From: Fulvimarina pelagi HTCC2506
GTDB lineage: Bacteria; Pseudomonadota; Alphaproteobacteria; Rhizobiales; Rhizobiaceae
Assembly: GCF_000153705.1 (NCBI RefSeq)
Contig: NZ_DS022272.1
Location: forward strand, 2,802,798-2,866,797
Length of the DNA stretch: 64,000 bases
Direction of reading: 5' to 3'
Positions 27,711 to 31,853 of this stretch are shown here, piece after piece. A program made the translations under genes and the position numbers. The notes beneath the pieces were generated by a model. The model searched no databases. It saw only the letters and a list, made by a program, of their open reading frames with translations, and was not told the origin of the DNA. Numbering within the stretch: position 1 is the stretch's first letter; each line of letters begins with the position of its first letter.

Positions 27711-27998
27711 ATGCGCAGCACGAAGACGATCCATGTTGTGTCCTGCCACGCTGAGGGCGAGGTGGAAACGCCCTATGGCGGTTATAGTTTTATGTTGGTC
27801 GATGCGGCAGCGATGGGCGTTGAGTTCAGGCCTGAGGAGGCGCGCAAGCTTGCCGAACGCGGTGTTAGAATTACCAATGTCCTCAATGCCGGCCACCAAT
27901 TCTACCACCCTGATAACCCGGAATGGACGCATGTATCCTTCTGCCTCTTCGCCGGGCCGGTAGTAGGCGAAGAAGCGTTGGAGCAGGCAGTAGATTGA
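27711..27998 (+). pseudogene. Proline racemase family remnant with internal deletion
   Basis: Begins MRSTKTIHVVSCHAEGEV, the typical start of trans-3-hydroxyproline dehydratase/4-hydroxyproline epimerase family proteins. It then jumps directly to TPYGGYSFMLVDAAAMGVEF and the later block HPDNPEWTHVSFCLFAGPV. About 130 residues that normally lie between, including the first catalytic Cys region, are missing. The C-terminal half with the second catalytic Cys is also absent. It is a deletion product without expected activity. The bases before it hold no other recognisable gene. Confidence 0.75.
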
Positions 27999-28111
27999 AC
28001 CCAACTCGACGGGCCGGCAAGCGAACCGTTCGGTCCCAAGAGGTTATAAGCGAAGGCCGCCAGCCTGCGAATGGTCGATCGGGACCGACGCCTCGAAATA
28101 ATCCGGCATCT

Positions 28112-28357
28112 TCAAGCAGTGAAGAGTGCTTTCTTGTCGGTTTCATTCGGCGCAAGCAATTTGGCAGGGGCCCGGATCTCGCTGCGGATTACGACCTCGA
28201 AATCATGCATTTGGTCGAGAAACTCTAAGATCTTCGTCGCCATAGCCGACTTATCTTCCGCGCCGGGCTTCGCCAGCTCGAGATGGGCCATCTGGTAGTC
28301 CTCTATGAGGCGTCCGATGTCGTCAGACCAAATGTCGAAGCTCGCGCGAATTCGCAT
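28112..28357 (-). CDS. Small hypothetical protein or gene fragment
   Basis: An 81-residue frame, charged and mostly helical in appearance (MRIRASFDIWSDDIGRLIED ... KILEFLDQMHDFEVVIRSEI), with no signal peptide or motif I can name. It is next to the proline racemase remnant. It may be the end of a larger gene that has been lost, because it starts without a good ribosome binding site and the flanks are eroded. Confidence 0.35.
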   Translation of the reverse strand: MRIRASFDIWSDDIGRLIEDYQMAHLELAKPGAEDKSAMATKILEFLDQMHDFEVVIRSEIRAPAKLLAPNETDKKALFTA

Positions 28358-28637
28358 GATCGATCAGAAACGCGCCCGAGACCGCGGGGCTTTCCATCGC
28401 GCTTAGGAAAAGCACACCGAAATCGTTGCCGTCGCCGGCTATCGCGCGCTGGCCTCGCTTCTTTGCTCAGTGGGTTGCCAGAGACGCGAGTGGGCTCAGT
28501 GTTGCCTAAAGCGGCCGCATTCGCCGCCTCATTGACGGATCGCGGCGACCCTTTTCGCTAATCACTGGAACAGGTCCAGCTTCTGTGCAGAAGCGCAACA
28601 GTTCGAGAACTACCCGTATTCCGGGCTTGATAGAATC

Positions 28638-28652
28638 TGATAATTTTAGTCA
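28638..28652 (+). promoter_or_regulatory. RirA iron-responsive operator (IRO) motif
   Basis: TGA-TAATTTTAG-TCA, an exact match to the TGA-N9-TCA IRO consensus described for RirA targets in rhizobia. It lies 71 bases before the TonB-dependent receptor start, in a proximal promoter position, and a rirA gene follows the receptor. Repression under iron sufficiency is expected. Confidence 0.7.
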
Positions 28653-28723
28653 TGTTTTTTGAGCTGCGATCCAGACCGAAGAGCGATGGCGCGGCCCCTG
28701 TTTCGAGTTGAGAGAGAAAACCG

Positions 28724-30766
28724 ATGATCGATCCCAAAGCGACGGCGCGTTTGCGTCGCGCGCTCCTTCTGACCGTCACGCCACTGTTCGGGTTGCTCGC
28801 CGGGCCGGCATACGGCCAATCCGCGACCGGCGATCCCGGCGCTATCCTTCTGGATACCGTCGTCGTCGAGGCCGGCGGGGAAGGAACCGACGAGACGGGC
28901 GAGATCGCCGACGTCTCCGAGGGCAACACCATCGCGGTGATCGACTATACCGAGATCCAGGAATTGCGTCCGGGTTCGGTCCAGGAACTCTTCCGCCGCG
29001 AGTCGGCGGTCGCTGTCGGCGGAACCAGCACGTTCAACCAGAAGGTCTACGTCCACGGCATTGAGGAAACCAATTTGGCTGTGACAATCGACGGGTCGCG
29101 GCAGAACAACAAGATCTTCCATCACAACGCAACGAACGTGATCGATCCGCGCCTCCTGAAGGTCGCAAGGGTCGATGCCGGGGTCGCGGCTGCCGATGCC
29201 GGACCGGGCGCGATCGCAGGTTCTATCGCCTACGAAACGGTCGATACCGGTGACCTGCTTGAGGAGGGACGCAACATCGGCGGCTACGTCGAAGGCCGCT
29301 ACGACACCAACAGCGAGACGGTGAACACCTATGGCAGCCTTTACGGGCGTGCGAACGGCTTCGAAGCGCTCGGTTTCCTCAACTGGGCGGAAGGCGACGA
29401 CTACGAGGACGGCAATGGCGACATCGTCGACTATACCGGCGTCGACCTGATCAGCGGGCTTGGCAAGGTCGCCTATGAGAGCCTGTCTGGCGATCGTGTC
29501 GAACTCAGCTACGAGCGCGTCAAGGACGACGGTGTCCGGCCATACCGCGCCAATATCGGCGCAGTCATCGGCGGCCGTCCGGTCCCGGAGTCGCGGACCT
29601 ACGACATCGACCGGCAGAACGTCGTTCTATCCTACGAGAATACCCTGGCGACCGGCTATTGGGATCCGGAGATCACGCTCGCCTATTCCAAGACCGATCT
29701 GGAGACGACCGAGCAAGATCCTTTCACCGGCCGGGATATCGTCTACGAGGCGAGCACCGACAGCCTGAACGGCACGATCGCCAACGAATTTCACGTGTCA
29801 CTCGGCACGATCAAGGTCGGCGTCGACGCCTATAGCGACACCGCGGACTTCGCGAGCGAGACCGATCGCTACCGGACCGAAGAATCGGCCGACAATTTCG
29901 GCGGCTTCGTACAGGCCCGGCTCCGTCCGATCGATCCGCTTCTCGTCTCGTTCGGCGGACGCGTCGATCACCAGATCTTCACCGGCGTCGACGGCATGGA
30001 TCAGGAAAACACGGGCGCGAGCGGCAATATCTCGCTCGAATACGACCTGACCGAGTTCTTCCGTCTGAAGGGCGGCTATTCGAACACATTCGGCGGGATC
30101 GCGCTTGCAGAGAACTTCATCCAGAACCCGGACTGGATCTACACCGACATCGAAACCGTACGCGGAGAGAACGTCTTCGCCGGCTTCGGCGTGAACCATC
30201 TCGGCTTCACCTTCGACGCCCAGATTTTCCGCACGGAGATCGACAACGGCCGGACGCCGAGTTTCGCCGATCCGAACGCCACCGCCGACTTCCTCAGCAC
30301 CGGCTACGATGTCGCGCTCGGCTACGACTGGGTGACGGGCAATGTCCGCGGTACCTTCACCAGCATCGATACGGAAGTCGACGGAGCGCCGGCCGATTCG
30401 TTTCTCGGCACCTACTTCACCGTGCCCGTCGGCGAACTCTTCACGGTCGCGGCCGTGCAGCGGTTCGATACTTACGGCCTGACGCTCGGCGCGGATGCGC
30501 AGATCGCGCTCAGCGAAGACGCACCGACCAACGACCCGACGAATCCGGATCTGGCGGACAGTTCGCTGGACGGCTACACGGTCGTCAACGCCTTCCTGGA
30601 ATACACCCCGCCGAGCTTCAAGAATGTCAGCTTCCGGGCCGAAGTCGACAACATCTTCGACGAAGCCTATGCGGAACGCGGCACCTACGGCCAGGAGTTC
30701 ACGACCGTCGAGCCACTCCTGAGCCCCGGGCGTTCGTTCGGTTTCTCGACCCGGGTCACGTTCTGA
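28724..30766 (+). CDS. TonB-dependent outer-membrane receptor, probably iron-related
   Basis: A 680-residue outer-membrane receptor. It has a signal peptide at about 1-31 (LLLTVTPLFGLLAGPAYGQ). A TonB box-like stretch near LLDTVVVEAGGE precedes a plug domain (ELRPGSVQELFRRESAVAVGG, VYVHGIEETNLAVTIDG, VDAGVAAADAGPGAIAGSIA). A 22-strand-type barrel follows, with VDNIFDEAYAERGTYGQEF near the end and a terminal Phe (STRVTF). The ligand is unknown. An IRO motif upstream and rirA downstream point to an iron compound such as a siderophore or haem. No ABC importer or TonB gene is beside it, so it must use partners elsewhere. A strong terminator follows. Confidence 0.9.
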   Translation: MIDPKATARLRRALLLTVTPLFGLLAGPAYGQSATGDPGAILLDTVVVEAGGEGTDETGEIADVSEGNTIAVIDYTEIQELRPGSVQELFRRESAVAVGGTSTFNQKVYVHGIEETNLAVTIDGSRQNNKIFHHNATNVIDPRLLKVARVDAGVAAADAGPGAIAGSIAYETVDTGDLLEEGRNIGGYVEGRYDTNSETVNTYGSLYGRANGFEALGFLNWAEGDDYEDGNGDIVDYTGVDLISGLGKVAYESLSGDRVELSYERVKDDGVRPYRANIGAVIGGRPVPESRTYDIDRQNVVLSYENTLATGYWDPEITLAYSKTDLETTEQDPFTGRDIVYEASTDSLNGTIANEFHVSLGTIKVGVDAYSDTADFASETDRYRTEESADNFGGFVQARLRPIDPLLVSFGGRVDHQIFTGVDGMDQENTGASGNISLEYDLTEFFRLKGGYSNTFGGIALAENFIQNPDWIYTDIETVRGENVFAGFGVNHLGFTFDAQIFRTEIDNGRTPSFADPNATADFLSTGYDVALGYDWVTGNVRGTFTSIDTEVDGAPADSFLGTYFTVPVGELFTVAAVQRFDTYGLTLGADAQIALSEDAPTNDPTNPDLADSSLDGYTVVNAFLEYTPPSFKNVSFRAEVDNIFDEAYAERGTYGQEFTTVEPLLSPGRSFGFSTRVTF

Positions 30767-30802
30767 CGAGAAGGCGACCCGGCTGACACTCCAGTCGGCC
30801 CG

Positions 30803-30840
30803 GCCCGGTCCATCCGACATTCGGATGGGCCGGGCTTGTT
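30803..30840 (+). terminator. Rho-independent terminator after the TonB-dependent receptor
   Basis: A 15-bp stem (GCCCGGTCCATCCGA at 30803-30817 pairing with 30821-30835, one T-G wobble) with a CAT loop, followed by TTGTT. It separates the receptor transcript from rirA, 36 bases after the receptor stop. Confidence 0.85.
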
Positions 30841-30997
30841 GCATCTGGGCGATGCGTGCCGCCGTCGAGAGGAGAAAAAAGGACGTAGAAGTGCGTTTCG
30901 CTCACTTCGTCCGGACGGGACATCCCGGCGCCCCTTCCCATTACGTTGGAGGCATTCTAAATTGGACTTCGAAGCTCTTGTTCAGACGGGACGGTCC

Positions 30998-31447
30998 ATG
31001 CGCCTCACGCGACAGACGAACTATGCGATCCGGATCCTCATGTATCTGGCGGTCAACAAGGATCGTCTGAGCCGACTAGGCGAGATCGCGAAGGCCTATT
31101 CCGCGCCCGAACCTTTCATGTTCAAGATCCTCAATCCTCTCGTCTCCGCCGGCTTGGTGGAAACGGTGAGAGGCCGCAACGGCGGCATCCGGCTGGCGCG
31201 GGAGGCCACGCGCATCAACCTGCGCGAAGTGGTGGAGCTGACGGAAGAAAGCTTCCAGATGGCCGAATGCTTTGAAACCGGAGCGGATTGCCCACTGATC
31301 TTCAGTTGCGAACTCAACGCCGCCCTCCGCCAGGCGCTGGAAGCGTTCCTCTCGACGCTAGGCCGCTATTCGTTGGAGGACCTGACGAAGAACAAGGGCT
31401 ATCTCCACCGGACCCTTGGCATCGAGAAGGCCGATGCGGCGGCCTGA
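30998..31447 (+). CDS. rirA: Rrf2-family iron regulator RirA
   Basis: A 149-residue Rrf2-family transcription factor. The N-terminal winged helix (MRLTRQTNYAIRILMYLAVN ... ETVRGRNGGIRLA) closely follows the RirA pattern. Three cysteines, Cys91, Cys98 and Cys104 (AECFETGADC, FSCELN), would bind an Fe-S cluster. RirA is the main iron-sufficiency repressor of many Hyphomicrobiales and binds IRO motifs. The ATG at 30998 gives the conserved N-terminus; longer upstream frames are not needed. One residue fewer lies between the first two cysteines than I remember for other RirA proteins, so a paralogous Rrf2 regulator remains possible. Confidence 0.85.
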   Translation: MRLTRQTNYAIRILMYLAVNKDRLSRLGEIAKAYSAPEPFMFKILNPLVSAGLVETVRGRNGGIRLAREATRINLREVVELTEESFQMAECFETGADCPLIFSCELNAALRQALEAFLSTLGRYSLEDLTKNKGYLHRTLGIEKADAAA

Positions 31448-31538: not shown

Positions 31539-31853
31539 GTGACGTCAACGCCCGTGAATGCCAAATCCACCGAGCTGAGTTCTGAAGAAACCGATCTTTG
31601 GGCGCGAGCGCCGAGCCCTTGTATCGACGTTTGCAAATACAAACGTAGGGGCCGTTGCATCGGCTGCTCGATGACCAAGCTCGAAAAGCAGGCGTTTCCT
31701 GAAAACGGCGGTCCTCAGCAGAAAAAGGCCTTCATCGAGACGCTGATCGCCAATCTCGAGGAGATCGGACGGAACCCGGCGTTCTGGGCTTACACTTATC
31801 GCCATAAATGCGAGCGCGAGGGCGTGCCATGTCCGATCACGATCGAGAAATAA
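31539..31853 (+). CDS. DUF1289 family protein
   Basis: A 104-residue protein with the DUF1289 cysteine pattern SPCIDVCKY...GRCIGCSMTKLEK (four cysteines in about 25 residues), likely a metal or Fe-S site. Two further cysteines occur near the C-terminus (HKCEREGVPCP). The function of the family is not known. The apparent start is GTG at 31539. It follows rirA by about 90 bases on the same strand and may share its transcript. Confidence 0.75.
   Translation: MTSTPVNAKSTELSSEETDLWARAPSPCIDVCKYKRRGRCIGCSMTKLEKQAFPENGGPQQKKAFIETLIANLEEIGRNPAFWAYTYRHKCEREGVPCPITIEK

Follow-up and report, generated by a model that had tools for sequence, protein, structure and literature searches.

The DNA considered here is a stretch of 64,000 nucleotides of the Fulvimarina pelagi HTCC2506 genome (contig NZ_DS022272.1, positions 2,802,798 to 2,866,797), referred to below as the window. 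It contains, on the plus strand, the gene of a TonB-dependent outer-membrane receptor that is preceded by a TGA-N9-TCA sequence, a predicted iron-responsive operator (IRO) of the Rrf2-family regulator RirA, and followed by rirA itself (Table 1). Fragments related to the asb genes of petrobactin synthesis lie directly upstream. These arrangements, together with a distant asb-like gene island, suggest that the receptor serves a petrobactin-type siderophore under RirA control.

The receptor gene and its upstream motif

A sequence-only reading of the window had placed an exact TGA-N9-TCA motif 71 bases ahead of the receptor gene, and 71 nt indeed separate the box from the receptor ATG at 28724. 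The bare motif alone is weak evidence for an operator; it occurs 16 times in the window as against 11.12 matches expected, and 16 or more were obtained in 6 of 100 shuffles. The predicted IRO stands above chance because the site is conserved upstream of receptor homologues. Within 150 nt upstream, TGA-N9-TCA was found in 14 of 40 homologues, that is, in the window and in 13 of the 39 others, which supports the operator that had been proposed for the receptor; shuffling gave a mean of 1.05 and at most 5 (500 shuffles), and the control motif ACT-N9-AGT occurred in none of the 40 upstream regions. The 40 rows comprised the window receptor, 32 of 34 named loci and 7 whole-genome loci scoring above 400 bits. 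The named loci L034 and L037 (27% relatives) were left out and whole-genome matches below 400 bits were dropped, by which 8 of the 40 matching genomes were kept, that of F. pelagi included. The genes were located by tblastn, longest-open-reading-frame calling being unreliable in G+C-rich DNA, and their starts were chosen as signal-peptide-like start codons.

In 12 of the 14 homologues the IRO begins 83-99 nt before the start codon; that of Aurantimonas endophytica is TGATAACAATAGTCA at -92. The two outlying sites, in L026 (-49, TTG start) and L044 (-100, G+C-rich spacer), precede doubtful starts, and the L044 match is probably a chance occurrence. By our own grouping of the rows, exact sites are present in 8 of 16 Rhizobiales, 6 of 18 Rhodobacterales and 0 of 6 others. 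TGA-N9-TCA thus occurs, conserved, upstream of iron-uptake genes, as would be predicted of an IRO operator.

The receptor exceeds the cut-offs of PF07715 (47.3 bits, cut-off 23.9) and PF00593 (77.1 bits, cut-off 27). On its own genome contig the gene extends from 2831521 to 2833560, and no other PF00593 match was found in the genome, which is 98.94% complete; two genomes of the same genus have 8 and 4 such matches, of which one in the set of 4 falls under the cut-off. A Pfam domain scan detected no STN domain in the protein, and neither fecI nor fecR was seen beside its gene. Its closest relative is the receptor of A. endophytica (L004, 58% identity), with which it groups (93/90) in a tree of 38 rows; L006 and L029, whose frames from the match start were too short, are absent from that tree. 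Another clade of eight receptors (100/99) is labeled throughout as without IRO, including L044, which had been counted among the 14. Six of these eight were tested for STN: L032, L041, L042 and L043 pass the Pfam cut-off, and L044 and L045 lie just below it. All five loci tested for FecR encode it beside the receptor, and both loci tested for an ECF sigma factor have one. One receptor family thus shows two wirings, predicted direct IRO control without STN and STN receptors accompanied by FecR.

Table 1. Features of the receptor-rirA locus and of the asb-like island (window coordinates unless a locus is named)
Feature	Position	Strand	Remark
IRO box TGATAATTTTAGTCA	28638-28652	+	exact TGA-N9-TCA, predicted RirA operator
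TonB-dependent receptor, FprA-like, STN not found	28724-30766	+	PF07715 and PF00593; 680 aa
Hairpin, 16 bp	30802-30836	+	fold prediction; possible transcription end without T-run
Irr-box-like GGAGGCATTCTAA	30948-30960	+	starts 50 nt before the rirA ATG
rirA, Rrf2-family iron regulator	30998-31447	+	NCBIfam RirA equivalog NF008886
DUF1289 protein	31539-31853	+	PF06945; neighbor of rirA in some relatives
asb-like relic: exporter 5' end, gap, asbDE-like 3' end	27954-28345	-	DNA match
Internal asbDE-like relic, 69 nt	28340-28408	-	88% DNA identity to L177 13204-13136
Possible relic of a QuiC-like dehydratase C-terminus, 20 aa	28410-28469	+	tblastn
QuiC-like 3-dehydroshikimate dehydratase (TIM-barrel)	L177 6391-7239	-	in asbF position

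The asb-like island and the ligand

The likely partners of the receptor are encoded in one 18-kb island (C4:3152390-3170147) about 319-337 kb away; the receptor gene is ~319 kb from the near end of the island and 333 kb from the gene of the binding protein. The island contains a TIM-barrel gene, an exact IRO, two IucA/IucC genes (asbA- and asbB-like) and an AMP-binding gene (asbC-like). It also contains the genes of a protein with PP-binding and DUF6005 domains (asbDE-like), an ABC exporter, a DUF2218 protein and a 262-aa protein without a Pfam match, as well as tonB, exbD and exbB, from which the importer genes diverge, coding for a siderophore binding protein, a pair of permeases and an ATPase. 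Within it, no gene of a TonB-dependent receptor was detected. The statement that no ABC importer adjoins the receptor was correct for its neighborhood, although this distant island encodes an importer that is a likely partner. Of four FecCD matches in the genome, the two strong ones (195 and 155 bits) both belong to this siderophore-type cassette. In the searches, a PF00593 receptor, a PF03544 TonB, a strong siderophore permease pair, an IucA/IucC pair and RirA were each found once in the genome, which would make it an unusually clean one-to-one case for outer-membrane uptake of a petrobactin-type siderophore.

The homologues of asbA, asbB, asbC and asbDE occur in order and are 42.6, 40.2, 47.5 and 37.5% identical, respectively, to those on plasmid pCasidaAA of Ensifer adhaerens Casida A. 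The TIM-barrel gene, whose Pfam domain and place had pointed to asbF, failed in direct comparison; its protein was matched by the first domain of the NCBIfam QuiC model (283.5 bits), and the gene is called QuiC-like. It is possibly a non-orthologous replacement at the asbF place. The 3,4-dihydroxybenzoate of petrobactin comes from AsbF, and the reaction of the QuiC model would yield the same compound. Because that reaction supplies what petrobactin needs, the renaming leaves the likelihood of the overall interpretation unchanged.

A scan of the genome for further IRO sites, as had been suggested, gave 14 places with a refined IRO pattern and 2 with a control pattern. One of the 14 (3153337-3153351) lies in the 293-bp gap between the QuiC-like and the asbA-like gene; the plain chance expectation for the 13 other places to hit this gap, made without correction for base composition, is 0.001. 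The refined pattern was shaped on the homologue sites, that of the window receptor included, so the receptor's own match is circular and only the match on the asbA side is independent. The 14 places are not by themselves a strong excess because about 8 would be expected by chance according to a base-composition estimate (hand arithmetic). At the other 12, no iron gene was recognized in the lists of open reading frames that were read, with one protein scanned.

The connection of the receptor with this type of cluster comes from its homologues. With the receptor of the Casida A asb locus (L178) it shares 46.5% identity over 652 aa, and there the receptor gene is followed by a DUF2218 gene, asbA, asbB, asbC and asbDE. 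Among the 34 named loci, an importer of the same type (binding-protein match of at least about 200 bits) is present in the receptor's locus in 17, and asb genes, within flanks of ~6 kb, in two (L021, L032); two of four wider stretches (L172, L173) also combine asb genes with a receptor homologue, as does Casida A. A binding protein scoring above 200 bits is found in 7 of the 8 genomes with a receptor match above 400 bits. In F. pelagi itself, only relics of asb-like genes adjoin the receptor, and the intact asb-like cluster lies ~319 kb away.

The FprA and Asb proteins of Casida A are given as 85-93% identical to those of Sinorhizobium fredii in PMC8822346, and the Casida A receptor, from its place, would be that FprA. 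Homology of the window receptor to FprA was judged through the Casida A receptor rather than the S. fredii sequence. FprA is termed putative in PMC8822346; PMC12815270 calls it the canonical receptor for petrobactin in S. fredii. The window receptor is called FprA-like, not FprA, because neither an STN domain nor an adjacent fecR was seen. Its ligand, for which the sequence-only reading made no proposal, can be narrowed through the asb-linked homologues and the asb-like island; the best guess is a siderophore of the petrobactin type. Rhodopetrobactin and methylolanthanin are related metallophores and call for caution.

RirA and the relics beside the receptor

The protein encoded after the receptor, described earlier as RirA-like with three cysteines, passes the cut-off of the RirA equivalog model (205.9 bits, cut-off 193) and remains below those of NsrR, IscR and CymR; judged by its sequence, it is RirA. 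It starts at the ATG at 30998 and has 149 residues; the reading frame from TTG 30836 is longer than the conserved protein. Cys91, Cys98 and Cys104 are invariant in 30 of 30 aligned rirA loci. Residue 8 is Asn and not Asp, and the role of Asn8 in RirA is described in PMC10510648. At position 17, 26 of the 30 loci have Cys, whereas L072 and the three genomes of this genus have Leu. PMC5863699 raised the possibility that an additional, N-terminal Cys serves as fourth cluster ligand, and a later argument for a non-protein fourth ligand is contained in PMC10510648, a view with which Leu17 of the window RirA is in agreement. RirA of this genus also has one residue fewer between the first two cluster cysteines than most.

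The gene is present in a single copy; a second Rrf2 protein of the genome is more distant (29%) and exceeds only the superfamily cut-off. There are also three Fur-family genes. One product is Irr (218.8 bits, cut-off 150), the second is Zur-like though below its cut-off (96.4 of 167), and the third, over no cut-off and encoded ~2.4 kb from the weak FecCD pair, would be consistent with a manganese regulator. The sequence ahead of rirA that we take to be Irr-box-like was so named from the ICE (iron control element) consensus, and a loose form of this pattern occurs upstream of 21 of 30 rirA genes, a raw count uncorrected for background. Its presence fits the repression of rirA by Irr, which is reported for Agrobacterium in PMC6386902. 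No exact IRO lies within 160 nt upstream of the window rirA. Elsewhere, TGA-N9-TCA was observed within 160 nt before rirA in 7 of 30 loci (L086, L087, L091, L094, L095, L096, L098), which suggests autoregulation or a divergent target in those loci. Weak matches to TonB receptors near rirA were seen in at least the genomes G020, G029, G031-G034, G036, G041, G043 and G051.

The notion that receptor and rirA form a self-contained pair of sensor and one target had to be given up. The single rirA would also face the second exact IRO between the QuiC-like and asbA-like genes, rirA carries an Irr-box-like sequence instead of an exact IRO of its own, and neither of the two same-genus genomes examined shows the adjacency. 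Over 18 kb around rirA, these two genomes have only rirA and the DUF1289 gene in common with the window place, and the receptor-rirA adjacency is therefore not a conserved pair. A DUF1289 gene directly 3' of rirA was found in 4 of 14 rirA stretches (L109, L110, L112, L113).

A possible origin of the adjacency is indicated by the DNA upstream of the IRO. The larger relic there is 75.5% identical over 392 nt to the intact cluster (L177 13813-13423, E 5e-74), and the relics, the candidate dehydratase piece included, have the order and strands of the intact island turned round. Counterparts of asbA, asbB and asbC are missing from the set beside the receptor. In the simplest reading, the receptor would be the survivor of a local asb-like cluster that lost its synthesis genes. 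Farther upstream, between 22695 and 27998, there are an IS110-family transposase, a truncated hydroxyproline dehydratase/proline racemase and an ABC ATPase judged by eye to be truncated, and this part of the window is a region of gene debris.

Probable petrobactin-type uptake and competing explanations

The explanation that we consider probable is that of a RirA-repressed petrobactin-type receptor that was stranded beside rirA by decay of its own cluster. The receptor would be FprA-like and admit through the outer membrane a petrobactin-type siderophore, probably one made by the cell itself. In the presence of iron, RirA with its [4Fe-4S] cluster would occupy the IRO and repress the receptor gene; when iron falls, the cluster would break down, RirA would leave the operator and production of the receptor would begin. 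Through the second IRO, in the gap before the asbA-like gene, siderophore synthesis would be turned on in parallel, and the siderophore-type ABC importer of the island, together with TonB-ExbBD, would complete import. The receptor would adjoin rirA as the survivor of a former asb-like cluster from which the synthesis genes were lost. The split locus would then also be a case for how RirA coordinates synthesis and uptake.

The closest described counterpart is the fprA-c14010-asbABCDEF-fatBDCE locus of S. fredii, which is repressed by RirA according to PMC8822346. F. pelagi resembles it in its asbABC-DE-like genes, siderophore ABC importer, tonB/exb genes and TGA-N9-TCA sites and in a receptor homologous to the asb-linked one of Casida A, beside which the DUF2218 gene may correspond to c14010. 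Unlike in S. fredii, the receptor is ~320 kb from the cluster and beside rirA, with the IRO directly at its gene and no STN domain or fecI/fecR seen; a QuiC-like gene occupies the asbF place, and relics of a second cluster exist. The system thus looks like a variant of the RirA-controlled FprA/Asb/Fat system with direct IRO control, no visible STN/FecR arm, a single receptor and a split cluster. With the RirA/IRO regulon of Rhizobium leguminosarum, described in PMC5863699, PMC6748827 and PMC10510648, it shares a RirA with three Cys and Asn8 and an IRO before a receptor gene, there fhuA; it differs in that the window receptor is not FhuA and that residue 17 of RirA is Leu. The asb locus on pAU20b of Aureimonas sp. 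AU20 (L179) is similar in importer type and in joining asbABC-DE genes with a TonB-dependent receptor, 119 nt before which a TGA-N9-TCA starts. The AU20 receptor aligns only weakly with that of the window (26% over 219 aa, E 6e-4) but, along its length, has 58% identity with the same-genus receptor L147/L111, which shares its promoter and leader with the window receptor.

Several observations weigh against the explanation preferred here. The exact motif has no match in 26 of the 40 homologues, the counts include rows of close relatives that are not independent, and the IRO label changes 7 times on the tree (mean of 10.4 in shuffles, 3 of 500 as low), being clustered but not confined to one clade. 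A search for a sigma-70-like promoter found none. Identity between the window receptor and asb-linked homologues amounts to 46-48%, the flanks of the A. endophytica receptor yielded no match to asbA, asbB, asbC or asbDE, and the AU20 asb locus has a different receptor type. Island proteins score under their cut-offs: the AsbD domain, for which petrobactin AsbD is the best model (42.7 of 100), the AsbC-like protein (456.3 of 513, NCBIfam), the siderophore binding protein (best NCBIfam score 142.7 of 450) and the TIM-barrel protein (two-domain QuiC cut-off of 1200), whose gene showed no detectable similarity to those occupying the asbF position in AU20 and Casida A. The name Fat-like for the importer derives from its place and from homology in relatives, not from comparison with FatBDCE of S. 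fredii or Bacillus. The 316-bp gap between importer and exb genes (L104 3972-4287) holds IRO-like sequences with one mismatch each and no exact IRO, and the dehydratase relic is a weak match (55% over 20 aa, E 0.034).

The pairing of asb genes with another receptor type in AU20, and the named homologue loci, most of which have no asb genes in their ~6-kb flanks, would also be understandable if the receptor imported a xenosiderophore and the cell's own siderophore entered by another route. This is unlikely: because no second PF00593 receptor was found in the nearly complete genome, the own siderophore would be without a known gate, and it is to the window receptor that the asb relics adjoin. 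A heme or haemoglobin receptor, placed near rirA as heme-uptake genes may be in some relatives, is very unlikely. The best partial family matches are to models of such receptors (TIGR01785, 167.7 bits), ShuA, PhuR and HasR are among the PDB matches, though the first-ranked chain is named ferric enterobactin receptor/iron-regulated outer membrane protein, and at least 10 of 101 genomes have a weak receptor match, probably to heme receptors, no more than ~6 kb from rirA. However, 167.7 bits are far below the TIGR01785 cut-off of 316.85, and the receptor contains neither FRAP nor NPNL, which are motifs of heme receptors. Both strong FecCD permeases, the only ones, are part of the siderophore-type cassette, and the homologues share loci with such a cassette or with asb genes.

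That the site belongs to a Fur-family regulator instead of RirA, or is a chance motif, is highly improbable. It is true that the homologous site of Nitratireductor, TGATAATTATTATCA, fits the 7-1-7 box, the classical Fur site, that three Fur-family genes are present and that the bare motif occurs often in the window; yet 8 of the 14 sites read TGAGT, a poor fit to the Fur box, and the assignments of the three proteins, to Irr, to a Zur-like protein and possibly to a manganese regulator, speak against a Fur-family regulator at this site.

The terminator reported after the receptor can be retained in part. A strong 16-bp hairpin is predicted there, and the 95-nt stretch that holds it folds with -54.1 kcal/mol (z -4.76), a stability reached by 0 of 200 shuffles, but a scan that requires a T-run called no terminator between 28500 and 31100.

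The region around the IRO has a counterpart in the same genus. The receptor gene L111 (also L147) has ~270 bp in common with that of the window (70% DNA identity, E 5e-26; L111 9005-9293, window 28638-28880), comprising IRO, promoter, leader and TonB-box region, with 64.5% identity over the first 62 aa. Beyond this stretch, the two proteins align only as distant TonB receptors, and the L111/L147 body shares 58% identity with the receptor of the AU20 asb locus. With an AU20-like body under a window-like leader, two types of asb-locus receptor occur with one promoter-leader in one genus. Tentatively, the IRO promoter, signal peptide and TonB box could be regarded as a portable cassette, the receptor body below it being exchangeable as a whole, although we consider this doubtful; if true, a receptor could be swapped without loss of RirA control or TonB coupling.

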